From assembly GCA_025612375.1 (NCBI GenBank), contig JAAXKN010000022.1, positions 7,502-71,501 of the forward strand: a stretch of 64,000 nucleotides of DNA. Reading direction: 5' to 3'. The DNA is from Ignavibacteria bacterium. GTDB lineage: Bacteria > Bacteroidota > Ignavibacteria > Ignavibacteriales > SURF-24. The translations under genes and the position numbers were made by a program. Numbering within the stretch: position 1 is the first letter of the stretch; every line of letters starts with the position of its first letter. The notes beneath the pieces are model-generated. The model did no database searches and was not told the DNA's origin. It saw nothing but the letters and a program-made list of their open reading frames with translations. Below, in pieces: positions 3,905 through 64,000 of this stretch.

Positions 3905-6184
3905 TCATTCCGAGAACGAATACGGCATATCGCCCTTCGCCGTTCCCCTGCTTTTGTTGGGTTTACTGCTCATGCGGAATTCAAGGCTGCCGCCTTGTAT
4001 CAGGTCCTGGTGCGTCAGGAAATTTTTGGTGTAGTCTTTGCCGTTAAGTGATGCTTTATCGATATAGATGTTCTCATGCGAATTGTCACTGGCTTCAATG
4101 GTAAAGGTTTTTCCGTTTTCGAGGTGGAGCACGGCTTTGCTGAATAAGGGGGATCCGAATACGTACTCCCCTGCCGCGGGGCATACGGAGTACATGCCCA
4201 AGGCTGAAAGTACATACCACGCGCTTGTCTGACCGTTATCCTCGTCGCCGCAGAGGCCGTCGGGCTCGGGAGTGTAAAGTACGTCCATTGCCTCACGCGC
4301 GTGCGCCTGAGCCTTCCAGGGCTCGCCCGCGTAGTTGTAAAGGTATATTGCGTGCTGAACGGGCTGGTTGCCGTGAGCGTACTGACCCATGCCCGCAATT
4401 ACCATTTCCGTAATCTCGTGTATCTGCACTCCGTAATATGAATAGTCGAACGTGGGGGCTGAGGTAAATAAAGAGTCGAGCTTTGCCGTAAATTTCTCCC
4501 TTCCGCCCATGAGGTTCATCAGTCCCGCGGGGTCATGAAATACGGCCCATGTGTAATGCCAGGCGCATCCTTCAGTAAAGGCGTCGCCCCATTTGTCGGG
4601 CCTGAAGGGGCTCTGGAATGTGCCGCTGCTGTTTCTTCCGCGCATGAAGCCAGTGGACTTGTCAAAGACGTTTTTGTAGTTCATGGAGCGTCTGGCAAAG
4701 CGGTCTGTTTCATCTTTGGGGCGGCCGAGCGCCTGTGCGAGCTTCCATATTGCAAAGTCGTCGTAGCTGTATTCAAGCGTGCGGGCGGCGTTTTCATTGA
4801 TTTTGACGTCGTAAGGCACGTAGCCAAGCGAATTGTAATACTTTACGCCGCGGCGGCCTACGGATTCAAGCGGGCCTTCATTTTCGGAGTTCTTCAGTAT
4901 GGCTTCATAAAGTTTATTTATGTCGTATCCCCTTATGCCGTTAAGGTATGTGCCTGCAATAACGGAAGCCGAGTTGGAGCCTATCATGCAGTCGCGGTGG
5001 CCGGGGCTTGCCCATTCGGGTAGCCATCCGCTTTCGTTGTAGGTATTTACAAGTCCCTCCATAATATGGCTGCATAGTCCGGGCTGCATTATTGTTAGTA
5101 GCGGGAAAGCCGCGCGGAAGGTGTCCCAGAAGCCGTTATCTGTAAACATGTAGCCCGGATGAACCACACCGTCGTAGGGGCTGTAGTGGACAACTTTATT
5201 ATCCTTATCCATTTCATAAAGTCCCCTTGGAAAAAGCATGGTTCTGTAGAGCGCAGTGTAGAAGGTTTTCATCTGGCTTTCGGTGCCGCCTTCAATTTCA
5301 ATTCTGGACAAGCCGTCATTCCACACTTTTTCAGCTTTAGTCATGGTTTCGGTAAATGAATCGTTTCCTATTTCCCTTTTCAGGTTCAGCTCCGCCTGAT
5401 CAAAGCTTATAAAAGATGAAGCGGTACGGATGTGGACTGTTTCATTTTCATTAGTTTTGAATTTTACCGCGGCCATTACGTGATCTGCTGTTTCTTCTGT
5501 TCTGCCGGGGAATATTCCCTTTTCGCTCCATGTACAGACTGAATCTATTTCCTTATCAAAATAAACGACGAAGTAGTTATGAAAGTTTTCCGGGACGCCG
5601 CCTTTGTTGTTGCGGCAGTAGCCTATTAGTTTTTTTTCTTTTGGAATGACCTTTATATATGAGCCTTTGTTGAAGGCATCTATAAGTAGGTAGGAGTTAT
5701 CCGTCTTGGGATACTTTACCCGGAACTGCGCTGCGCGTTCGGTGGGGGTTATTTCAACCGAGACGTTATAGTCGCCCAGGTATACCTGATAGTAGTAAGG
5801 CTTTGCAATTTCCCTTTTATGGCTGAACCAGGAGGCGCGTTCGTCCTCAGGAAATTTAAGCGTGCCGGTAATGGGCATAATAGAGAAGCTGCCGTAGTCG
5901 CCAATCCACGGTGAGGGCTGGTGGGTCTGGCGGAAGCCTTTAATTTTATATTCATCGTATGTATACATCCAGCCGCTGCCCATTTTGCCCGTCTGTGGCG
6001 ACCAGAAGTTCATAGCCCAGGGAAGAGCAATGGCAGGGTAAGTGTTGCCGTTGGAGAGTTTATAATCCGAGTCCGTGCCGACGAGCGGGTTAACCAGGCC
6101 AGCCGGGTTAATTTTTTTTGCGCCCTTATCTCCGGCGGAGACAATTGCAGTAAGCAGTAAAACAGTCATCAGGATTCTTTTCAT
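3905..6184 (-). CDS. Glycoside hydrolase family 92 alpha-mannosidase (first copy)
   Basis: A calcium-dependent inverting exo-alpha-mannosidase (GH92, typically alpha-1,2) of about 759 residues. I place the start at the ATG at 6184, preceded by GGGAG six bases upstream and followed by the signal peptide MKRILMTVLLLTAIVSA; the longer ORF to 6250 adds an unlikely leader. The N-terminal beta-sandwich (starting VNPLVGTDSDYKLSNGNTYP) is followed by the (alpha/alpha)6 catalytic domain. Family hallmarks include DNGFWDTFRAAFPL, the GWLPEWASPG region, GCAWHYTWAVFHDP, HGNQPVQHAIYLYNYAG and GLCGDEDNGQTSAWY, the last supplying acidic catalytic and calcium ligands. It has no T9SS tail, so it is probably periplasmic. 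The gene is flanked on both sides by hairpin elements. Confidence 0.94.
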   Translation of the reverse strand: MKRILMTVLLLTAIVSAGDKGAKKINPAGLVNPLVGTDSDYKLSNGNTYPAIALPWAMNFWSPQTGKMGSGWMYTYDEYKIKGFRQTHQPSPWIGDYGSFSIMPITGTLKFPEDERASWFSHKREIAKPYYYQVYLGDYNVSVEITPTERAAQFRVKYPKTDNSYLLIDAFNKGSYIKVIPKEKKLIGYCRNNKGGVPENFHNYFVVYFDKEIDSVCTWSEKGIFPGRTEETADHVMAAVKFKTNENETVHIRTASSFISFDQAELNLKREIGNDSFTETMTKAEKVWNDGLSRIEIEGGTESQMKTFYTALYRTMLFPRGLYEMDKDNKVVHYSPYDGVVHPGYMFTDNGFWDTFRAAFPLLTIMQPGLCSHIMEGLVNTYNESGWLPEWASPGHRDCMIGSNSASVIAGTYLNGIRGYDINKLYEAILKNSENEGPLESVGRRGVKYYNSLGYVPYDVKINENAARTLEYSYDDFAIWKLAQALGRPKDETDRFARRSMNYKNVFDKSTGFMRGRNSSGTFQSPFRPDKWGDAFTEGCAWHYTWAVFHDPAGLMNLMGGREKFTAKLDSLFTSAPTFDYSYYGVQIHEITEMVIAGMGQYAHGNQPVQHAIYLYNYAGEPWKAQAHAREAMDVLYTPEPDGLCGDEDNGQTSAWYVLSALGMYSVCPAAGEYVFGSPLFSKAVLHLENGKTFTIEASDNSHENIYIDKASLNGKDYTKNFLTHQDLIQGGSLEFRMSSKPNKSRGTAKGDMPYSFSE

Positions 6185-6259
6185 AATACTCCCGGTATGT
6201 GTGAAAATAGTTTTACAAATGTAATGAAATTTGCGGGAATTTGTGTGCATGGGTTTTAT

Positions 6260-6429
6260 GAATAGCCCTGACCTTTAGGTCGGGGTGGATCAATACGCAC
6301 CCACACCCTCGGGCTTTAGCCCCCGATCATTCGGGGAAAATCCCGCATTGCGATGGGAAATCTGGGGCTAAAGCCCATTTGGGGAGAGGGGGAATTTCCG
6401 GTTCCACGAGCTAAAGCTCGTGGCTATTC
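6260..6429. repeat. Second composite hairpin element (GAATAGCC ends)
   Basis: Ends GAATAGCC (6260-6267) and GGCTATTC (6422-6429) are inverted. Each leads into a hairpin with a CTTTAG/CTAAAG core: GACCTTTAGGTC near 6270, GAGCTAAAGCTC near 6409. Two more CTTTAG/CTAAAG hairpins lie inside (near 6311 and 6363). It has the same plan as 3550-3853, but the stem sequences differ while the core is kept. Confidence 0.8.
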
Positions 6430-6442
6430 AAAAAAATAAGAA

Positions 6443-6460
6443 AGCCCTCCGAGGAGGGCT
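6443..6460. terminator. Hairpin copy matching the GH92 terminator
   Basis: AGCCCTCC-GA-GGAGGGCT with flanking A-runs, almost identical to 3867-3884. No minus-strand gene ends here, so it is better viewed as part of the repeat element that can also act as a terminator. Confidence 0.4.
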
Positions 6461-6568
6461 CAAAAACCTCGAATCCTGCGCTTCGGGAACCTCGAACTTT
6501 GATCTATTATTCTTATATTTGGATCATTAATCCGGAATATTTTTCAAATTAAATACAGGAATTATTAA

Positions 6569-7561
6569 ATGACTTACCTGCCATCTGCCTCCAGATATGA
6601 GGGCATGACGTATAAAAGATGCGGCAAGAGCGGCCTTAAGCTTCCTCTTATATCGCTGGGACTCTGGATGAATTTCGGCGGCGTGAATATCTATGAAAAC
6701 AGCCGCAGTATGCTATTCAGGGCTTTCGACCTTGGAATTACACATTTCGACCTGGCAAATAACTACGGACCTCCCTACGGCAGCGCCGAGGAAACTTTCG
6801 GCAGCGTTATGGAACGCGACCTCAGGCCTTACCGCGATGAGCTTGTAATATCGACCAAAGCGGGCTACGATATGTGGCCGGGTCCATACGGCAACTGGGG
6901 ATCGAGGAAGTACATCATTTCAAGCCTCGACCAGAGCCTGAAGAGAATGAAGCTGGATTATGTGGATATTTTCTACCACCACAGGCCCGATCCCGAGACT
7001 CCCGTTGAGGAATCCATGATGGCGCTGGACCAGATAGTCCGTTCAGGCAAGGCTCTTTATGCGGGCATTTCAAATTACAGTGCCGAGCAGACAAAAAAGG
7101 CGGTTGAGATTATGAAGGAGCTCAAGACGCCATTTATTATCCACCAGGCAAAGTATAACATGTTCAACCGCTGGATTGAGGACGGACTGTTGGATGTGCT
7201 GGATAAAAACGGCATGGGATGCATTGTGTTCTCCCCGCTGGCGCAGGGACTCCTTACAGATAAGTACCTCAAAGGCATACCCGAAGGCTCACGCGCGTCA
7301 AAAAGCTACAGCTCGCTTAAGGACCAGATTACAGACGACAAGGTTAGAAAGCTGAACGACCTGAACAATATGGCAAAAGAGCGCAACCAGACTCTGGCGC
7401 AGATGGCGCTTGCATGGACTATGAGGCTTCCGGGTGTAACTTCAACGCTAATAGGCGCAAGCCGTGTTGAGCACATAAACGACGCCATCGCCCTCCTTAA
7501 GAACACCTCGTTCAGCGAAGAGGAGATTAAGAGGATAGATTCTATTTTGTACAGCCTCTGA
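6569..7561 (+). CDS. gpr: Aldo/keto reductase, L-glyceraldehyde 3-phosphate/methylglyoxal reductase type
   Basis: A cytosolic NADPH-dependent aldo/keto reductase of 330 residues, close along its whole length to E. coli YghZ/Gpr as I remember it. Shared stretches include RCGKSGLKLP, GITHFDLANNYGPP, STKAGYDMWPGPYG, SLDQSLKRM and FSPLAQGLLTDKYL. The catalytic tetrad is visible: Asp and Tyr in FDLANNYG, Lys in STKAG, His in FYHHRPD. The C-terminal TSTLIGASRVEH segment is the cofactor phosphate-binding part. The family detoxifies methylglyoxal and reduces short aldehydes. It is a single gene on the plus strand between two minus-strand blocks, with its own terminator. Exact substrate cannot be read from sequence. 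Confidence 0.92.
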   Translation: MTYLPSASRYEGMTYKRCGKSGLKLPLISLGLWMNFGGVNIYENSRSMLFRAFDLGITHFDLANNYGPPYGSAEETFGSVMERDLRPYRDELVISTKAGYDMWPGPYGNWGSRKYIISSLDQSLKRMKLDYVDIFYHHRPDPETPVEESMMALDQIVRSGKALYAGISNYSAEQTKKAVEIMKELKTPFIIHQAKYNMFNRWIEDGLLDVLDKNGMGCIVFSPLAQGLLTDKYLKGIPEGSRASKSYSSLKDQITDDKVRKLNDLNNMAKERNQTLAQMALAWTMRLPGVTSTLIGASRVEHINDAIALLKNTSFSEEEIKRIDSILYSL

Positions 7562-7594
7562 TTTTTTGGGGGAATGTCTATGCACCCCAAAAAA

Positions 7595-7620
7595 AAGCCG
7601 GTCCCGCAAGGAACCGGCTT
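7595..7620. terminator. Bidirectional terminator between convergent genes
   Basis: AAGCCGGT...ACCGGCTT stem with a short inner loop. It is followed by TTCTTGTTT on the plus strand and by a T-run (TTTTTTGGGG) on the minus strand. It serves the reductase gene and the long beta-helix gene, whose stop lies at 7647. Confidence 0.85.
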
Positions 7621-7646
7621 TTCTTGTTTCAGGATTTAGAGGAGTC

Positions 7647-10600
7647 TTACTTGAGGAGCATCATTTTCTTAATGCCCGTAAAGTTGGATCCGTCAATCCC
7701 CTTTGCTTCCAGCCTGTAAATATACATTCCGCTTGGCAGGTTAGACGCATTGAATGAAAGTATCTTATGGCCGGCAGGCATTAAGCTGCCATTCATAAGT
7801 GTTAAGACTTCCTCTCCAAGAACACTATAGATCTTCAATGTTACGTTTGCATTTGTCCTAAGGTCAAAGCTGATGGTAGTTGAAGGGTTAAACGGGTTAG
7901 GATAATTCTGATTCAGAGCATATGTTGCAGGAATCCTGGAATTTTCCTGAACTCCGTCGATCATATCCAGATCAGCCGTGCTTCTAGGAAGCAGTTCATA
8001 GCCGTCGTTAGGAGTAGCAGAAGAAGTGTACTGGCTGATGACACCCGTAATGTTAGCAGGCCACCTGATTTCTTTTGTTCCGTCTATATCGGTATCATTA
8101 TCGATAAACACGATTGCCGAATCCTGATCGGCTTCAACCATGATATTGGCATACTTACCGGCTTCAGGCCAAACATTAGTGCCTGTAGACTTCTTGCTGA
8201 CGTTTTTAACTCTTACAAGGCTTCCTTCATATTTTTCTGAATTGACATCCTTCAGGGATATTTCAATCGGAGCAGGAACTCTTGCATTTGTCTTGAGTAC
8301 CGTAACGCTTCCTTTTTCACCTACTTCAGTTGTAAGAGGAACAAATTCAGTTGCACCCTTATACTGATCGATCTTGCCTTTTACAAGTATGCTGTCGCCA
8401 ATGTTCAGCGCGGCTGAAAGTTTCTTGGCTGAATAGAGCAGTACACCTGCAGTTCCGTCAGTAATATAGTAGTTATTTCCACCGGCACTTGCGGTAAAGT
8501 CGGGTGAAACAACAATGCCTTTAGCCTTAAGTGTCTGTCCCTTTCTGTCGGGTATAAAGTCGGTGTTCAAGTCTTCTCTTGCCGTTGCCAGAGAAAGAAC
8601 CGGTACAGTTACGTCTGTTGTATTTCTCGGTATAAGTATGTAACCGTCACTGAGGGTCTGCGAATTCTGTCCGACCACGCCAATGATATCCAGCGGCCAT
8701 TCAGGTTCACTTGTTCCCGGCAGCTTTGTGTCGTGATCAATAAAGAGTGACAAAGAATCTGTACTAGTGCCGACAGTCAAAGTTGTGTCGTTTGAAACCG
8801 GCCATGGCACGCTTGAAGTCATTTTTGAAAGGCCTCTTACAACAACAAGATTACCTTCATACTGTTCAGACTTAAGGTCTTTTACAGTAATGACCACCGG
8901 AGCAGGGACAGAAGCATTTGCTTTAAGAACAACCATGCTTCCCTGGTCGCCAATAACGGTATCAGCAGGGGTGATTTCAGTCTGGCCGTTAAACTGGCTG
9001 ATTACGCCTGTAACCTGAAGGCTGTCTCCCATAGAGAGTTCCCTGGAGAACTTCTTTGTTGAGGAAAGAACAATACCTGCCGTCTTGTCGTTTAAGAAGT
9101 ATACGCTTCCTGTGTCACTGGCCGAGAGGTTGTTTGTAACTACAACAGCTGTTAACTTAAATGTCTGGCCTATTCTGTCAGGAACTAAATCTGTATTCAG
9201 GTCTTCTCTTGCCTCTGCAACTGTAGGAGCCTGAACAGGGGCCTCTTTACCCATTGTAAAGTCGGCGCCAGAGATGATGTTTACCTGTGCAAAGTGTTTT
9301 ACAGTGTCAATAGAGGTCGGGAGCTGGCTCCAGACTTCACTTGACTTCTGGTGCATCTTTAATGCTGTTTCAGTTATTCCGTTTAACTCTGTAGTGGGAT
9401 TATAATAGAGCTTAAGGTCAGCGTTCCAGCCCTTTACACCGCCAAAAGTTGCAACAGAGTAGTTCTTGTAGATTGAACTTCCTGCTGGTGTAGTCAGCTG
9501 GCTTCCCGGATTATAAGACAGGGCAACTGAATCAGGAAGAGTGCCTTTTCCCTTGTGCCAGGTCAGTTCACCAACTTTTTTGCCGTCAACGCCTGTAAAT
9601 ACAGTAGTCATGCTGTCGGCTATTGTGCCTGTTGATGTAACAGAAGGCTTGCCTGTAGCGGCGTATTCATCTGCGCCAACTGAGACAGGGCCCGAAGTTA
9701 AATCTGTACTTCTTTTATCACCGTCGATATCTGTTGTCACCTGTGCAAGCGGTGATCCCTGTGCCTTCACGAGCCATGAAGATGGTCTGATGTGGAGGTC
9801 ATAAGGGCTTGCTGCGCTTACAAAAGATGTTGTAGGATCAGCAAAGAATGAATTGCTTTCTCTTGATCCCATGTTGGCAATGGCACGGTATGAAGCCATC
9901 GACTTAAATGCTACTGAGTTGTTGAAAGCGATTCCGCAATTTCCTTTAGCTGTATCAGCAAAGTATAAGTTGTTATCGCTGTTTTCTGTCATTCTTACAA
10001 ACCATTCCGAACCGGTAGTATTGAAGCAGGATGAGGCAGAGACGCCGGTTCCGACTGCGCTTGTACCCATTGTGTTTACAAACGCGTTATTCTTAAGATC
10101 AAGTGTGGCAGTCTGGAATGACTGAAGATACAGACATGCTGAACGATAGCCTACGTTTGTTCCTTTTGTCACCGCAGGAGGAACCGAGTTATCGAGATAA
10201 ACGGTGTTATTATAGACTTTGAATGTGCCGTTTGTGCCTGTATTTACAAGAGCTAATCCTCTTACGTTTGGAGCACCGGTGGAAGCTGAATATGGCGCCC
10301 TCAGGTCATAGATCATGTTGTTATATATCTTTACAGTTACCGGGGTTCCGGTTGCCATATTCAGATAAATTCCCTCTACTCTGGCATTACCCGTACCGGT
10401 ATTGATACCGCTGGTAACGAGGTCATAGATCTTATTTCCATAAACCTGAACTTCAGTGTTATTTGCAACGTTGTTGCAGGCAATTGCACTTGCCACGCCT
10501 GTTGTTACCTGATCGCCGGCATTGTAAAGTGAACTGATTTCATTGTTACGGATAGTTATTGTACCGCCGCTTAAGTTGGTTCCGCTTGAAGAAGGATTAA

Positions 10601-55162: not shown

Positions 55163-55197
55163 TTGACTTGCTAATAATAACGGAAAGCGTTATTATT
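55163..55197 (+). promoter_or_regulatory. higBA promoter with overlapping operator
   Basis: A perfect inverted repeat, AATAATAACG (55173-55182) and CGTTATTATT (55188-55197) with a 5-base spacer, lies directly in front of higB. It overlaps a plausible promoter (TTGCTA at 55168, 17-bp spacing, TATTAT at 55191). Likely the HigA binding site. Confidence 0.75.
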
Positions 55198-55204
55198 GCA
55201 TTAT

Positions 55205-55486
55205 ATGATACGCTCATTTAAGAACTCGGATTCCGAGAAGATATTCAACCGGGAACACTCACGGGCGGTCCCGGCAAATCTCCTTGAAAAAGCATGGGTA
55301 AAATTAGCAATGATTCATGCTGCTGTGAGATTGGAAGATTTAAGAGTTCCTCCTGGCAATAAGCTGGAAAAACTGAGCGGGGACCGTGAAGGGCAATTCA
55401 GCATCAGAATAAATCAGAAATACCGTATTTGTTTTTACTGGCAGGATTCTAATGCCTTTGATGTTGAAGTAACTGATTATCATTAG
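55205..55486 (+). CDS. higB: HigB/RelE-type mRNA-interferase toxin
   Basis: 93 residues from the ATG at 55205 (MIRSFKNSDSEKIF), the normal start position for HigB; a TTG three codons earlier lies within the operator. The RelE/ParE fold is indicated by RAVPANLLEKAWVKLAMIHAA, LEDLRVPPGNKLEKLSGDREGQFSIRIN and KYRICFYW...EVTDYH. HigB toxins cut translated mRNA on the ribosome; the Arg/Lys/His residues in the RINQKYRICF and TDYH segments correspond to the active-site region. Toxin-first gene order is characteristic of higBA. higA follows 51 bases downstream. Confidence 0.9.
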   Translation: MIRSFKNSDSEKIFNREHSRAVPANLLEKAWVKLAMIHAAVRLEDLRVPPGNKLEKLSGDREGQFSIRINQKYRICFYWQDSNAFDVEVTDYH

Positions 55487-55537
55487 TTTTGCAAAGAATG
55501 CAGAAGCTTTCTGCTATAATAAAGAAAGGTTATTTAT

Positions 55538-55864
55538 ATGAAAACCGGAAAAGAAACAGTTAAGAAATTCGCCCCGGTACATCCAGGGAAGATACTGCTT
55601 GAAGAGTTTCTGGAGCCAATGGAAATCACACAGTACAGGCTTGCCAAGGAGATTAATGTTCCGGCAAGGCGTATTAATGAGATAGTGCATGGAGAAAGGG
55701 GAATTACGCCCGATACCTCCTTAAGGCTTGCAAAGTTTTTCGGAATGTCCGAGACATTCTGGCTGAACCTGCAGAACCTTTATGATGTTGAAGTTCTGAA
55801 AGATCAGCTGCAGGATGTATTGAGAAGCATTCATTCCTATTCCGGGATGCAGAAAGCATCATAA
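55538..55864 (+). CDS. higA: HigA antitoxin, XRE family
   Basis: 108 residues. The family start VHPGKILLEEFLEPMEITQYRLAKEINVP leads into the HTH (ARRINEIVHGERGITPDTSLRLAKFFG) and the conserved SETFWLNLQNLYDVE helix. HigA neutralises HigB and represses the operon by binding the palindrome upstream of higB. It ends with a hairpin terminator. No sign of decay in either partner. Confidence 0.93.
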   Translation: MKTGKETVKKFAPVHPGKILLEEFLEPMEITQYRLAKEINVPARRINEIVHGERGITPDTSLRLAKFFGMSETFWLNLQNLYDVEVLKDQLQDVLRSIHSYSGMQKAS

Positions 55865-57784: not shown

Positions 57785-58065
57785 TTTTTGGCGGGGGTGG
57801 GGATATAAAATTATGTTTCCACCTTTTGCCTGCCTGATAATAATCAATTGCCGAAAAAAGATTTCATAAAGGTGTAGAGTGCAGATTCCTCACAGAAAAA
57901 GTCCCAAATTTGTATTATGGGGAATTTTCAAATCATACATTTATCGTATCGAAATAGCCCCACATGAAGTTCATAAAAATCGAATACAACAGAACCATTC
58001 CAGCGCACAAATGAGCACACAAATTGCAATACTATTTGATTTATTAATTTCTATTAAATTGGAAC

Positions 58066-58094
58066 TTGACATGACACAAGTTTTTTGCTATTTT
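58066..58094 (+). promoter_or_regulatory. Strong sigma-70-type promoter at the head of the defence block
   Basis: TTGACA (58066-58071), 17-bp spacer, TATTTT (58089-58094), 24 bases upstream of an ATG with AAGGA. It fixes the start of the next gene at 58119 rather than at the upstream end of the open frame. Confidence 0.75.
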
Positions 58095-58118
58095 AAACAT
58101 AAACCAACAAGGATTGTT

Positions 58119-58499
58119 ATGAAAATAAATTTTTGGAAACCGGCACTAGCTACAGGCATTATTAAATTAACCGTTCACAGAGATGGGAACATGGGATTTT
58201 CAAGCGGCGCAGTAAAGAAATTAAATATTGATGAAAAAAGCTACGTAAAAATCGGCACTAATGGATCCGATACAAGAGATAGTAATTTATATCTTATGCA
58301 TACAAATGACTTTGATGAAAACGCACTTAAAGTAAATAAGGCTGGAGACTACTATTACCTTAATACAAAAAGCTTTTTCAATGAATTAAATATCGATTAT
58401 ACAAAAAAAAAGCTTGTATATGATATTGTTGAAATGGACTACGATGGCAATACTATATATAAGCTGATTAGAAGAGAACTTGAAAGAAAGAAGAAATAA
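58119..58499 (+). CDS. Small protein of unknown function at the head of the defence block
   Basis: 126 residues from ATG 58119, behind a good promoter and AAGGA; the open frame extends to 57879, but that part overlaps the promoter. The protein is basic, with a beta-rich start (TGIIKLTVHRDGNMGFSSGAVKKLNI) and middle (DSNLYLMHTNDFDENALKV, YYYLNTKSFFNEL), and ends in RRELERKKK. There is no signal or membrane segment. I do not recognise the family. Codon usage is AT-rich like the genes that follow, so it probably travels with the defence block. Linkage to it is inferred from position (123-bp gap). Confidence 0.65.
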   Translation: MKINFWKPALATGIIKLTVHRDGNMGFSSGAVKKLNIDEKSYVKIGTNGSDTRDSNLYLMHTNDFDENALKVNKAGDYYYLNTKSFFNELNIDYTKKKLVYDIVEMDYDGNTIYKLIRRELERKKK

Positions 58500-58622: not shown

Positions 58623-60497
58623 ATGTCAAGAGGTTGGATATTTGACGAACCACCTGCTTCAGGGAAAAGACTTATGGGCGATCCCGCCGAACAAGTATTT
58701 GCAACAGATTTATCTACATTCATCAGAGAGGTAATTCAAAATACAAAAGATCAAAAAGAAGAGGATCAAAAATCCCCTGCCCAAATTACATTTAAATTTA
58801 TCGAGTTGTCTGGTGAAGAGCTTCATGAATTCCTAAATAAAATAGAATGGGATAATCTCAGAGAGCATATCAAAACCAGCAGGAATGGAAATAAGGGTGC
58901 GAAACTGAAAAGAGCGCTTGAAGAGATTGAAAAAAAGAAAAAACTTTTGCTCTTAATAATTGAAGAAAAAAATACAAGCGGCTTGTGCGGTCCTGAATTC
59001 GGATATGAAGAACCAATACACGAAAGGATGAATTTTTCATCTTTAGTCCGAGATGAATTATTTAGCAATAAACAATCTGGCAATGCTGGAGGGAGTCACG
59101 GGCTGGGCAAGGCTGTATTATGGGCATTTTCAAAAATTTCAGTCGTGTTCTTTAATTCACACTTGAAATATGTTGGGAAGACACAGGAAACATGCAGACT
59201 GATAGGACGAGCAAACCTAACTTGGCATGAAATCGGCAAGGACAAATATACCGCAGACGGTTGGTATGGGAATATAGAAAGCATTTCCCAAGGAAAGAGA
59301 TCTGTATCCATGTGGGGAAATAATGCGGAAGAATTTGCTGAAAAAATTAAGATTGGAAGAGGTTCAGAAATTCAATCCGGCACTTCTATATTAATCGCGG
59401 GATTTTACGAGCCAAATGAAGATAAAGAAAGGGAAATAGAAGAAATAATTGCCGATATGGAGAAAGCTGTTCTAGAATGGTTTTGGCCCTGTATTTTCTG
59501 CTCTGCTCCCAGTCTTGAAGTTTCTTTCGAATTATGGGAAAACAAAAAACTCCGACTTCACAAGGACATTAAGGAAGAGGGAATCTCAAGTCCATTTGTA
59601 AAGGCTTTAAAGGCATATGAAAGCGGTACATTAAAAGAAAAGTTAACCAGCATTGGAGATGTAATAAAAAGAGAAATAGAAGTTGCTATCCCCCCTAGAA
59701 TAGATAGTTCAGGTCATACGACTCATTGCAAAGCAACTTTAATAATAAGATTATCTGACCCTAAAGAGGAAAAATATAGGATAAACTACTTAGGTTTTTT
59801 TCGTGGATCACGAATGATAATTAAGTATGAAAACAAACAAGATATTTCAATGACCGCAAAGCCCTTCCATGCCTTTTTAGTTTGCGGGAAGGGCAGAATT
59901 GAAAATGATCCATGCAATGAAACATTGGAAATTTTTCTAACTACAGCCGAACCTCCGTCACATAATGATTGGGATGCTTATTCTAAACTGCATGAATTTT
60001 ATAAACGAGGCTCTAATTCTGCACTAGCCGAAATGAAAAGAAACGTTTATAATGTCCTTAGAAAAGAGGTTTCAGAAGATATTCCTCAAGGACAAGAAGG
60101 GCCCAAACTGCTGCAGCAGAAATTCCGGCTGGGGAAAGGAGAAGCAGGGGGAGGTGAAAAACGCTTATTTAAATTTGATAATATGAGCGCCTATCTGAAA
60201 AATGACATTTGGAATTTTAAAGGTAGAATCAAAGCAAATCCTGAAATAAAGAAGAACTGGACAGCTGAAGTTAAGTTTCAGTTTCTTGATGAAGAAAACG
60301 AAACAGAGAATGCAATTATTAATAAATTAACGGTATCAACTGGAAATTCTAAAATCATAGATCATAAGGCAATAATAAACGTTCCTGCGGGGAGAAATGT
60401 AGTCGAATTTAGCGGCGATACAAGACCTGATTCTTATCCGGTTGACCCAGATTCCTGCAAAGTTCAAATAAACATTGCTGCAAAGGAGGAAGATTAA
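58623..60497 (+). CDS. GHKL-type ATPase (MORC/MutL-like) of a restriction-linked defence system
   Basis: 624 residues. ATP-binding motifs of the GHK superfamily are visible in order: N-box E36-xxx-N40-xx-D43 in FIREVIQNTKDQ; motif II in IIEEKNTSGL (114-121), where the usual Asp appears replaced by Glu115; and the glycine-rich lid GGSHGLGKAVLW (156-167). A charged helical insert (about 60-107) separates motifs I and II. The second half (330-480) is a beta-rich S5-like region with basic residues (RGSRMIIKYENK), then a C-terminal beta domain after residue 520. Related ATPases occur beside Vsr, Dcm and PLD nucleases. It is translationally coupled (TAATG) to the next gene and may act as the ATP-driven clamp that licenses cleavage. 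Confidence 0.82.
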   Translation: MSRGWIFDEPPASGKRLMGDPAEQVFATDLSTFIREVIQNTKDQKEEDQKSPAQITFKFIELSGEELHEFLNKIEWDNLREHIKTSRNGNKGAKLKRALEEIEKKKKLLLLIIEEKNTSGLCGPEFGYEEPIHERMNFSSLVRDELFSNKQSGNAGGSHGLGKAVLWAFSKISVVFFNSHLKYVGKTQETCRLIGRANLTWHEIGKDKYTADGWYGNIESISQGKRSVSMWGNNAEEFAEKIKIGRGSEIQSGTSILIAGFYEPNEDKEREIEEIIADMEKAVLEWFWPCIFCSAPSLEVSFELWENKKLRLHKDIKEEGISSPFVKALKAYESGTLKEKLTSIGDVIKREIEVAIPPRIDSSGHTTHCKATLIIRLSDPKEEKYRINYLGFFRGSRMIIKYENKQDISMTAKPFHAFLVCGKGRIENDPCNETLEIFLTTAEPPSHNDWDAYSKLHEFYKRGSNSALAEMKRNVYNVLRKEVSEDIPQGQEGPKLLQQKFRLGKGEAGGGEKRLFKFDNMSAYLKNDIWNFKGRIKANPEIKKNWTAEVKFQFLDEENETENAIINKLTVSTGNSKIIDHKAIINVPAGRNVVEFSGDTRPDSYPVDPDSCKVQINIAAKEED

Positions 60498-61492
60498 TGG
60501 TCTTAATAACAAAAAAGGAGGTTTTTTATCCTTATAGCTATTTAAACTCTCAAATAGAATTAACCATCTCTTCTTTTTTACTCGATCATAAAGAAAAAAT
60601 GGAATTTGTTGATAAAGATAATTTTACAATTGATTTAACAGATCAGAACTGGGATAAAGCCGCCATCAAACTTTCAATTGAACTAGACGGTAATTGGATC
60701 AATGACGTATTTCCATTTCCTGAATCCTACTCACCGGGGTATGAGGCATTGATTATATATTCGTGTAAAGAAGCAAAATGGCGGAAATTCATAAAAATGC
60801 AGGCAGTGGAAGGAAATACGAAATGGGAAGGAGAGCTCAAAATTGATAAAAAAGATATTTCGAATGAAGTACAGTTTTCATTCGTGATAGTAAGATCTGC
60901 AGATTCTCCAGATCCCGTATCAGGCTATGCAAAACGAATGGGCGAAAAAATCCTATCCTCAAATGAATGGAAGCTTGTCATCTATAAGTCTTCAGCAATT
61001 CCGGGACAGCATCTTCATATAGAGTGGGAGAATTTTAGCCAATCTCGAAATAAGATTAGGAAAAAATACAAAAATGAGATGTATTATTTAGATTTTGAGG
61101 GTGATGCACCGAAACTCTACCTAAATGAAGGTATACCAAATTTAAAAGTTTATTTTGAAAATAAGAGTCATTATGGTAAAGTATCGGCAATCAGAGATGC
61201 TATTTTTAACAATATTAGTCAATCAATATGGCAGGCGCTAATCCTTTCCTCAAGTATCGGGATAAAGAAAGCTGAGGAATTATCTGATTGGCAGAAAGCA
61301 GTACTTTTACAATTTGTTCATAAAGTAATAGATAATTCGGAAAATGAAAAAATTCTTGATGAATTTCTCTCCAGAATAAATGATTATCAAAGATTTGCTG
61401 AAATTTTCTCACATCTACAGCTAGTAATAAGTCAGAAGATTAATACTGAGAAAGCTATATCCTCTCTATTAAACATAACTTGGACAGAGTAA
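60497..61492 (+). CDS. Unknown protein, defence-block component
   Basis: 331 residues; the start overlaps the ATPase stop by one base (TAATG) and has a full AAAGGAGG site, so the two are made together. The N-terminal ~170 residues are beta-rich (AAIKLSIELDGNWINDVFPFPES, EVQFSFVIVRSAD), resembling a beta-sandwich. The C-terminal third is helical (AIRDAIFNNISQSIWQALILSSSI, ILDEFLSRINDYQRFAEIFSHLQ). I see no nuclease, helicase or methylase motif. I do not recognise the family. Tight coupling implies a partner of the ATPase, perhaps an adaptor. Confidence 0.7.
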   Translation: MVLITKKEVFYPYSYLNSQIELTISSFLLDHKEKMEFVDKDNFTIDLTDQNWDKAAIKLSIELDGNWINDVFPFPESYSPGYEALIIYSCKEAKWRKFIKMQAVEGNTKWEGELKIDKKDISNEVQFSFVIVRSADSPDPVSGYAKRMGEKILSSNEWKLVIYKSSAIPGQHLHIEWENFSQSRNKIRKKYKNEMYYLDFEGDAPKLYLNEGIPNLKVYFENKSHYGKVSAIRDAIFNNISQSIWQALILSSSIGIKKAEELSDWQKAVLLQFVHKVIDNSENEKILDEFLSRINDYQRFAEIFSHLQLVISQKINTEKAISSLLNITWTE

Positions 61493-61495
61493 ACA

Positions 61496-62161
61496 ATGGA
61501 ACTAAAGAAACTTAACAAAAATGGGCAGAAATTTGTAGATGAAGAATTCCTGTCTGGCGATAGCGATAAAGTCCTCCCAAATGATTCAGATCTGTATGAA
61601 GATTTTGGAAGAAAAGTTGATCTGACGGAGCTGAAAAAAGCAGTCGATTTTTGCATCAATAAATATCCCAAGTATGATCCAGGTATTGATGCATATCTTG
61701 CTCCGATAATTCATAAAGAGTTAAATCTAACTCCTGGAGAAGCTGCCGACAAAGAGATTTGGTTCTTTCTATCTGTTGCACAATTTCCCGAACTTGTGAG
61801 GCATAGATGGAAACCCTTTGAGTCAACAATTACCAGGGATAGATTTCTTGGCGAGATAAGGAAGAATACCTTTTATAGACTCTGGCTTGGTGCTCAGCTT
61901 ACACAAAAGGACGGGAATTATAATCTCACAAGTAAACTTTTTAAAGCCGGACAGCAATTTGTCGATGATTGCATGGAAAGAAGATGCAGTCAAACATATG
62001 ATTCTATCAATTCCCTGGTAGAGAATCTGTCAGCTAAGAATCGAAAGATTTATAGGTCAGTTATAAAGAAGTATATGCAGCGTCTTTCATTGACTGTACT
62101 TGAATATCTTGATAAGGATAAATCCGAGAAAATGTTGTCCGAAATTGAAAGCAAGCTCTAG
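61496..62161 (+). CDS. Unknown protein, possibly DUF6339 family; defence-block component
   Basis: 221 residues, mostly helical, starting three bases after the preceding stop. Conserved-looking stretches are DKEIWFFLSVAQFPELVRHRWKP, ITRDRFLGEIRKNTFYRLWLGAQLTQKDG and YNLTSKLF. From memory this resembles DUF6339 proteins found beside cytosine methylases in restriction loci; I could not verify that. No catalytic motif is evident. It sits between the ATPase pair and the Vsr gene, all in one direction, so it belongs to the same operon. Confidence 0.65.
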   Translation: MELKKLNKNGQKFVDEEFLSGDSDKVLPNDSDLYEDFGRKVDLTELKKAVDFCINKYPKYDPGIDAYLAPIIHKELNLTPGEAADKEIWFFLSVAQFPELVRHRWKPFESTITRDRFLGEIRKNTFYRLWLGAQLTQKDGNYNLTSKLFKAGQQFVDDCMERRCSQTYDSINSLVENLSAKNRKIYRSVIKKYMQRLSLTVLEYLDKDKSEKMLSEIESKL

Positions 62162-63857: not shown

Positions 63858-64000
63858 ATGCTGACAGGTCATCTTATTAAATCAATTCTTATTGAGCCTG
63901 TAAAAAAAGGGGCTGATAGTCTTTTTATTGTATCAGGTTTTGCTTCTCCTACGATGGCATCTAAACATATAGAATTAATTGAAGAGAAACTAAAAACACA
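63858..64000 (+). CDS. PLD-like restriction endonuclease, 3'-truncated by window end
   Basis: The ATG at 63858 follows GGAG eight bases upstream and opens a frame that is still open at 64000 (47 residues visible). The stretch DSLFIVSGFASPTMASKHIE resembles the start of phospholipase-D-superfamily restriction nucleases (NgoFVII-like), where a strand ending in SG(Y/F)AS precedes the HKD site. The catalytic part is outside the window, so this is provisional. It is 80 bases downstream of dcm in the same direction and would be the cleaving subunit of the system. Confidence 0.55.
   Translation, partial: MLTGHLIKSILIEPVKKGADSLFIVSGFASPTMASKHIELIEEKLKT

Follow-up and report, generated by a model that had tools for sequence, protein, structure and literature searches.

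Protein-coding genes B (331 amino acids, aa) and C (221 aa) follow the gene of a GHKL ATPase, A, in a 64,000-nucleotide stretch of the Ignavibacteria bacterium contig JAAXKN010000022.1 (assembly GCA_025612375.1, positions 7,502 to 71,501; hereafter the window). Our analysis revealed that this ATPase has B and C as obligate partners, and that the A-B-C set of the window is not a new system but probably a divergent version, distinguished by its longer B, of PDC-M33, a catalogued candidate defence system built around a GHKL family described as early as 2008. With a probability of about 0.6, A, B and C form one ATP-gated complex, a divergent PDC-M33 around a paraMORC2 ATPase, acting as a defence accessory beside a restriction-modification (R-M) system of the NgoFVII type. 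This reading is supported by the gene unit, with its A-B-C order, translational coupling and distance correlations, by the GHKL motifs and ExxxH of A, by the predicted folds, and by the exchange of partners between loci, where a methyltransferase is near in most clades and the nucleases and helicases vary. It is also based on the matches of A and C to PDC-M33A and PDC-M33C, the likeness of B to PDC-M33B, a low-GC (guanine-cytosine) island absent from four other genomes of the family, and published precedents (PMC2292703, PMC12137116).

The A alignment was scanned against one genome per species (84,980 species), giving 75 loci; the best 80 of 215 confirmed A matches were kept, and the sample therefore leans to the closest relatives of A. 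The three genes stand in the order A-B-C in 72 of the 75 loci, all retrieved by A alone, and the remaining three (L017, L024 and L060) are truncated where their contigs stop, in agreement with an earlier note on this DNA that had proposed B and C as core components. In the cassettes, A and B mostly overlap by 4 base pairs (bp; n = 64) or 1 bp (n = 14), while B and C overlap by 4 bp (n = 45) or 1 bp (n = 12) or are 1 bp apart (n = 15). Because B and then C homologues follow A so regularly, mostly with 4- or 1-bp overlaps, both open reading frames (ORFs) are real coding sequence and not chance. An ORF check recovered the two frames at the coordinates and lengths that the earlier note had given, and the sequence bears out the coupling it described: the A stop TAA (60495-60497) and the B start ATG (60497-60499) have one base in common, and the last base of B, 61492, is separated from the first of C, 61496, by a 3-bp gap.

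Pairwise distance correlations for A-B, A-C and B-C were 0.96-0.97 (88 cassettes), compared to 0.49 between A and the methyltransferase closest to it (over 72), all of them values to which shared clade structure, which can inflate such correlations, contributes a part. Among actinobacteria only, the A-methyltransferase correlation was 0.25, in loci that often carry two methyltransferases, and that of A-B was 0.91. Given the contrast between 0.96-0.97 and 0.49, A-B-C are inherited together and the methyltransferase is exchanged more freely.

Regarding protein A, the N box (E36..N40) and the G2 box (GGSHGLGK, 156-163) of the GHKL ATP-binding motifs are conserved, and the G1-box aspartate is changed to glutamate in the window copy. 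Residues E443 and H447 are identical in 94/94 A sequences, and this E443xxxH447 appears from its sequence to be the ExxxH in the C-terminal part of S5 that marks paraMORC2 (PMC2292703); a canonical PDC-M33A has the same EPPxH. The match of A to PDC-M33A extends across its N-terminal 276 residues. No nuclease domain was found in A, and the A profile gave no convincing match among the sequences of solved structures. Viral contigs scanned with A yielded no relative, and a phage collection yielded one partial relative of 26% identity (hit H18, MT837792.1 338-1114, in a 6.2-kilobase (kb) record labelled Bacteriophage sp.). Four haloarchaeal loci (L041, L037, L021 and L033) each hold A-B-C cassettes in two or three copies; in these, one A lacks the G2-box lysine (K163 replaced by S or A) and S158 and another is intact, a pattern that suggests pairs of putatively active and inactive ATPase subunits.

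Protein B has no match in Pfam, NCBIfam or PADLOC, and scanning genome contigs with window B alone brought up no relative. Its AlphaFold2 model (predicted local distance difference test, pLDDT, 91.6; predicted template modelling score, pTM, 0.62) places a predicted beta-sandwich at residues 16-178 before a helical domain at 186-330, the combination that the earlier note had expected, with the relative placing of the two halves uncertain because of the pTM. F180 and W265 are invariant in the family, and R96, P205 and N210 nearly so. A Foldseek search against the PDB returned one match below 0.001, a carbohydrate-binding sandwich with a query template modelling (TM) score of 0.20, and otherwise generic immunoglobulin (Ig)-like sandwiches; being generic Ig or carbohydrate-binding folds with query TM scores of about 0.2, these were rejected as evidence of homology. 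The B profile likewise found no convincing match among sequences of solved structures. The PDC-M33B model matches one of 84 members of the B family (0.0032) and does not directly match window B. In a profile-profile comparison, the B family and PDC-M33B were collinear over 195 columns with a single-comparison expectation value (E) of 0.0005 and a probability no higher than 31%; with fewer sequences, E was 0.0058. This profile-level match, taken with the identical gene slot, indicates that B is probably a very divergent PDC-M33B, although sequence alone does not prove it.

Protein C matches DUF6339 above the curated cut-off, and also PDC-M33C. It is modelled by AlphaFold2 as entirely helical, which supports the earlier note's expectation of a helical DUF6339-like protein. 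The description of both proteins as unrecognised holds for B, which no library matches, but not for C. Neither contains a catalytic Pfam domain, consistent with the lack of a recognisable catalytic motif reported before. R104 and R128 of C are invariant, D65 and H73 nearly so, but the C alignment contains no segment of sufficient conservation for scanning viral contigs. Foldseek retrieved no PDB match for C below E 1.7 and no significant match among viral models, and the C profile no convincing match among sequences of solved structures; the check by model and fold search proposed in the earlier note thus gave generic sandwiches for B and, for C, a confidently predicted fold without a match in the PDB or the viral models. 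CID7 was tried as a relative of C and rejected, since its match with a 7-row C profile (0.0025) was gone with a 68-row profile.

In the window, A, B, C, Vsr and the C5 methyltransferase all point in the same direction and all reading frames of the locus are intact (Table 1). The contig runs about 2 kb past the window edge, and the next gene encodes an NgoFVII-type endonuclease with an N-terminal PLD and a C-terminal B3-like domain, each above cut-off (PF09565 and PF20731), adjoining the C5 methyltransferase (PF00145). Methyltransferase, Vsr and nuclease make up a complete type II R-M set, and the locus therefore consists of A-B-C and an NgoFVII-type R-M system. Its GC content is 0.35, against 0.42-0.52 in the remainder of the window, and B is absent from all four other genomes of the same family that were searched; for both reasons the locus is probably an acquired element. 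The other contigs of the source genome were searched for B and DUF6339 only.

Beyond the window, a C5 methyltransferase is present in 39/41 actinobacterial loci, 15/17 haloarchaeal loci, 4/5 of the others and 0/12 myxococcal loci, mostly within 250 bp of the cassette. Vsr is found in 26/41, 0/17 and 0/12 of the actinobacterial, haloarchaeal and myxococcal loci, respectively, and neither Vsr nor the methyltransferase is a fixed part of the A-B-C unit. The restriction partners include NgoFVII (window and L014), HpaII (L098), AspBHI/Mrr (L037) and GmrSD-N (L030) types. A Z1 protein occurs in 16 actinobacterial loci, and a further partner set of actinobacteria and haloarchaea combines a YprA/DrmA-type protein, UvrD and a large superfamily 2 (SF2) helicase. 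Several haloarchaeal A-B-C loci also hold DISARM genes.

How the complex might work can be sketched from related proteins, and we infer complex formation, DNA clamping and stimulation of cleavage. GHKL-S5 proteins with roles on DNA undergo ATP-driven dimer closure. Protein A would dimerise on ATP binding and close on incoming DNA like MutL or MORC, B would link it to C through the sandwich and helical domains, and C would contact DNA or the partner nuclease through D65/H73/R104/R128. By holding or looping unmethylated incoming DNA, the clamp would make cutting by the neighbouring type II nuclease more effective, while the methyltransferase would mark self and Vsr would repair deamination damage. 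Looping of DNA between recognition and cleavage sites by MORC/paraMORC proteins of R-M operons was proposed by Iyer and colleagues (PMC2292703). The individual mechanical steps are tentative, and we would not give any of them even odds.

Several observations weigh against the accessory reading, in addition to the part played by clade structure in the correlations. Firstly, window A has E115 at the GHKL G1-box position, which is D in 91/94 sequences; the remaining two non-D cases, L041 and L037, are both haloarchaeal loci with several cassettes. Since the aspartate replaced here contacts adenine in GHKL proteins, ATP binding by window A should not be taken for granted. Secondly, window C has Q134, L131, P80 and N141 in columns where most other sequences have E, W, R and D. 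As all these changes, E115 included, fall at nearly fixed positions, the window copy may be altered or weakened. Thirdly, no experiment that demonstrates a defence function for PDC-M33 or for a paraMORC2 protein was found in the literature. Finally, six myxococcal loci, read for 10 kb on each side, and L099 and L100 hold a cassette without a methyltransferase nearby, and coupling of A-B-C to R-M is thus not universal.

These methyltransferase-free cassettes favour the main rival, namely that A-B-C is a self-sufficient defence effector and the R-M genes are mere defence-island companions or suppliers of self-marking methylation for it. On a Synechococcus plasmid (L010), no nuclease was recognised in the examined flank of an A-B-C-methyltransferase run, and in PADLOC, PDC-M33 stands as a multi-gene candidate of its own, both in line with such autonomy. 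The myxococcal neighbours share no common R-M theme, apart from DrmA/DrmB in L015. However, in nearly all non-myxococcal loci the methyltransferase lies very close, nearer than island sharing requires, and no nuclease motif was found in A, B or C, so that we consider self-sufficiency unlikely. A bolder version, which we rate as rather improbable, makes A-B-C a stand-alone nuclease-free machine, in which a MORC-like ATP clamp and a helical protein of new fold would trap or compact foreign DNA without cutting it and would have been added time and again to restriction systems of unrelated kinds, which provide the self mark.

A role outside defence, with A-B-C dedicated to assisting Vsr in a MutL-like manner when methylation damage undergoes very-short-patch repair, has a precedent in MutL, which binds Vsr physically and stimulates it (PMC6116569). 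Vsr adjoins the cassette in the window and is present in 26 of the 41 actinobacterial loci, and an HhH-GPD glycosylase family protein stands beside the methyltransferase in the haloarchaeal loci inspected. This view is weakened by the absence of Vsr from the 17 haloarchaeal and 12 myxococcal loci, the myxococcal cassettes having neither Vsr nor methyltransferase, and by the complete restriction nuclease that goes with the set in the window and L014; its likelihood is very low. Equally slim is the chance that B and C are a regulatory or toxic pair licensed by A, such as an abortive-infection effector triggered when restriction fails: many defence systems add an abortive layer and the conserved polar residues of C (R104, R128, D65, H73) could form an active site, but no match of B or C to a toxin or enzyme fold was found in the fold searches.

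Table 1. Features of the A-B-C locus and the adjoining R-M genes (window positions unless stated)
Feature	Position	Strand	Evidence
A: GHKL-S5 ATPase, paraMORC2-like, 624 aa	58623..60497	+	PDC-M33A 1.6e-23; motifs conserved in 94 homologues
TAATG, A stop/B start overlap, AAGGAGG upstream	60495..60499	+	sequence; 4- or 1-bp overlap in most homologous loci
B: 331 aa, predicted Ig-like beta-sandwich (~16-178) and helical domain (~186-330), probably divergent PDC-M33B-like	60497..61492	+	AlphaFold2 pLDDT 91.6; family alignment; profile match to PDC-M33B
C: 221 aa, predicted all-helical DUF6339, PDC-M33C-like	61496..62161	+	Pfam PF19866 8.4e-12; PDC-M33C 1.4e-8; AlphaFold2 pLDDT 94.8, pTM 0.91
Vsr mismatch endonuclease, 144 aa	62205..62639	+	TIGR00632 6.1e-41, above cut-off
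C5-cytosine DNA methyltransferase, 370 aa	62665..63777	+	PF00145 1.3e-73
NgoFVII-type PLD restriction endonuclease, 324 aa, start only in window	63859..64000 (whole gene L002:6360-7334)	+	PF09565 2.9e-38, PF20731 9.7e-40

Several neighbouring genes were also recorded. Just past the window and directly after the NgoFVII-type nuclease, L002:7611-8495 encodes a 294-aa protein with an HDIGY stretch and no Pfam match, perhaps a further component of the locus. Directly before A lies a low-GC ORF (57879-58499) whose family was not recognised and which may in fact begin further in, at an ATG near 58119, and two small ORFs at 55196-55864, adjoining the low-GC island, resemble a HigB/HigA toxin-antitoxin pair when judged by sequence only. 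In L014, the second locus of NgoFVII type, a 520-aa protein (6182-7744) between the methyltransferase and A matches the FokI cleavage domain at cut-off (1.2e-5). A protein of about 1600 aa (L047:4594-9393, with homologues in 23 other loci), in which an SF2 helicase is combined with a weakly sacsin-like stretch, recurs beside actinobacterial A-B-C, adjoining a UvrD and a DrmA-like helicase. Haloarchaeal cassettes have recurrent neighbours without a Pfam match, one of 258 aa (L037:5626-6399, homologues in 17 loci), which contains an IENVP stretch reminiscent of methyltransferases, and one of 507 aa (L037:4106-5626, homologues in 12 loci). The HhH-GPD DNA glycosylase family protein occurs in 16 haloarchaeal loci (L037:8012-8644 and 15 more), beside the C5 methyltransferase where inspected; it possibly replaces Vsr as the repair companion, a part that a mismatch glycosylase could plausibly take over.

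Two anonymous ORFs have thus become fixed partners of a paraMORC2 ATPase in bacteria and archaea, and the candidate PDC-M33 is extended to a large subfamily with a middle protein that none of the libraries recognises. In many bacteria and haloarchaea, the unit lies beside phage defences based on DNA methylation. It offers a small system for studying how bacterial MORC-type ATPases act on DNA, a question standing since 2008, and the fold of DUF6339, confidently predicted but without a match, is an obvious subject for structural work.

Among known systems, DISARM was considered because haloarchaeal cassettes often lie near DrmA/B/C, and was rejected for the window locus, where the stretches examined contain no DrmA or DrmB and the PLD protein is of NgoFVII type, not DrmC. 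The earlier note had set its proposal against a kinship of B or C with DrmB or Z1-type restriction subunits. Neither protein matches DrmB (DUF1998) in Pfam or PADLOC, nor is DrmB among the listed fold matches of B; neither has a Z1 domain, and Z1 proteins elsewhere are encoded by separate neighbouring genes. The C5 methyltransferase, the PLD endonuclease with B3-like domain and Vsr, all directly after C, resemble NgoFVII-type type II R-M, but no need for a GHKL ATPase, B or C is known in such systems. MzaABCDE or Z1-helicase MutL-type systems have a GHKL ATPase beside a C5 methyltransferase and Vsr, and some actinobacterial A-B-C loci also have a Z1 protein; however, the assembled part of the window locus has no Z1 helicase, and B and C were not Z1 in the searches made. 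VcSduA (Shedu), a paraMORC3 GHKL protein with anti-phage activity that requires its ATPase glutamate (PMC12137116), resembles A in being a defence GHKL ATPase whose middle region is clamp-like, but has its own DUF4263 nuclease, whereas no nuclease domain was found in A, and B and C are separate genes.

The closest likeness is to PDC-M33, listed in PADLOC-DB as its own multi-gene candidate defence system (M33A/M33B/M33C), with three genes in identical order: GHKL ATPase, middle protein and DUF6339 protein. PDC systems were put forward as candidates on the basis of genomic embedding, and experimental validation is pending for most of the core set (PMC12988326); our literature search found no paper naming PDC-M33 or DUF6339. 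Canonical loci of the same phylum (L097-L100) encode A, a B of 229-281 aa matched by PDC-M33B and a strong DUF6339 C, and Vsr and a C5 methyltransferase adjoin two of the four. The window set has A, C and the contiguous A-B-C order of PDC-M33, but its B is longer and is not recognised by the M33B model, and its A and C score far below those of a canonical member. The earlier note's suggestion that B and C define a new system therefore did not hold, as A and C match PDC-M33, B is probably a divergent PDC-M33B, and paraMORC2 GHKL ATPases in R-M loci were already described in 2008 by Iyer, Abhiman and Aravind (PMC2292703). Like those proteins, A combines N-terminal GHKL motifs with ExxxH in the later ATPase region, a patchy spread over bacteria and archaea, and an R-M context with C5 methyltransferases, Vsr and superfamily II (SFII) helicases. 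The text of that article names no families for B or C, its Figure 2 legend lists unnamed domains X1-X3, and the myxococcal and haloarchaeal cassettes widen the known spread.

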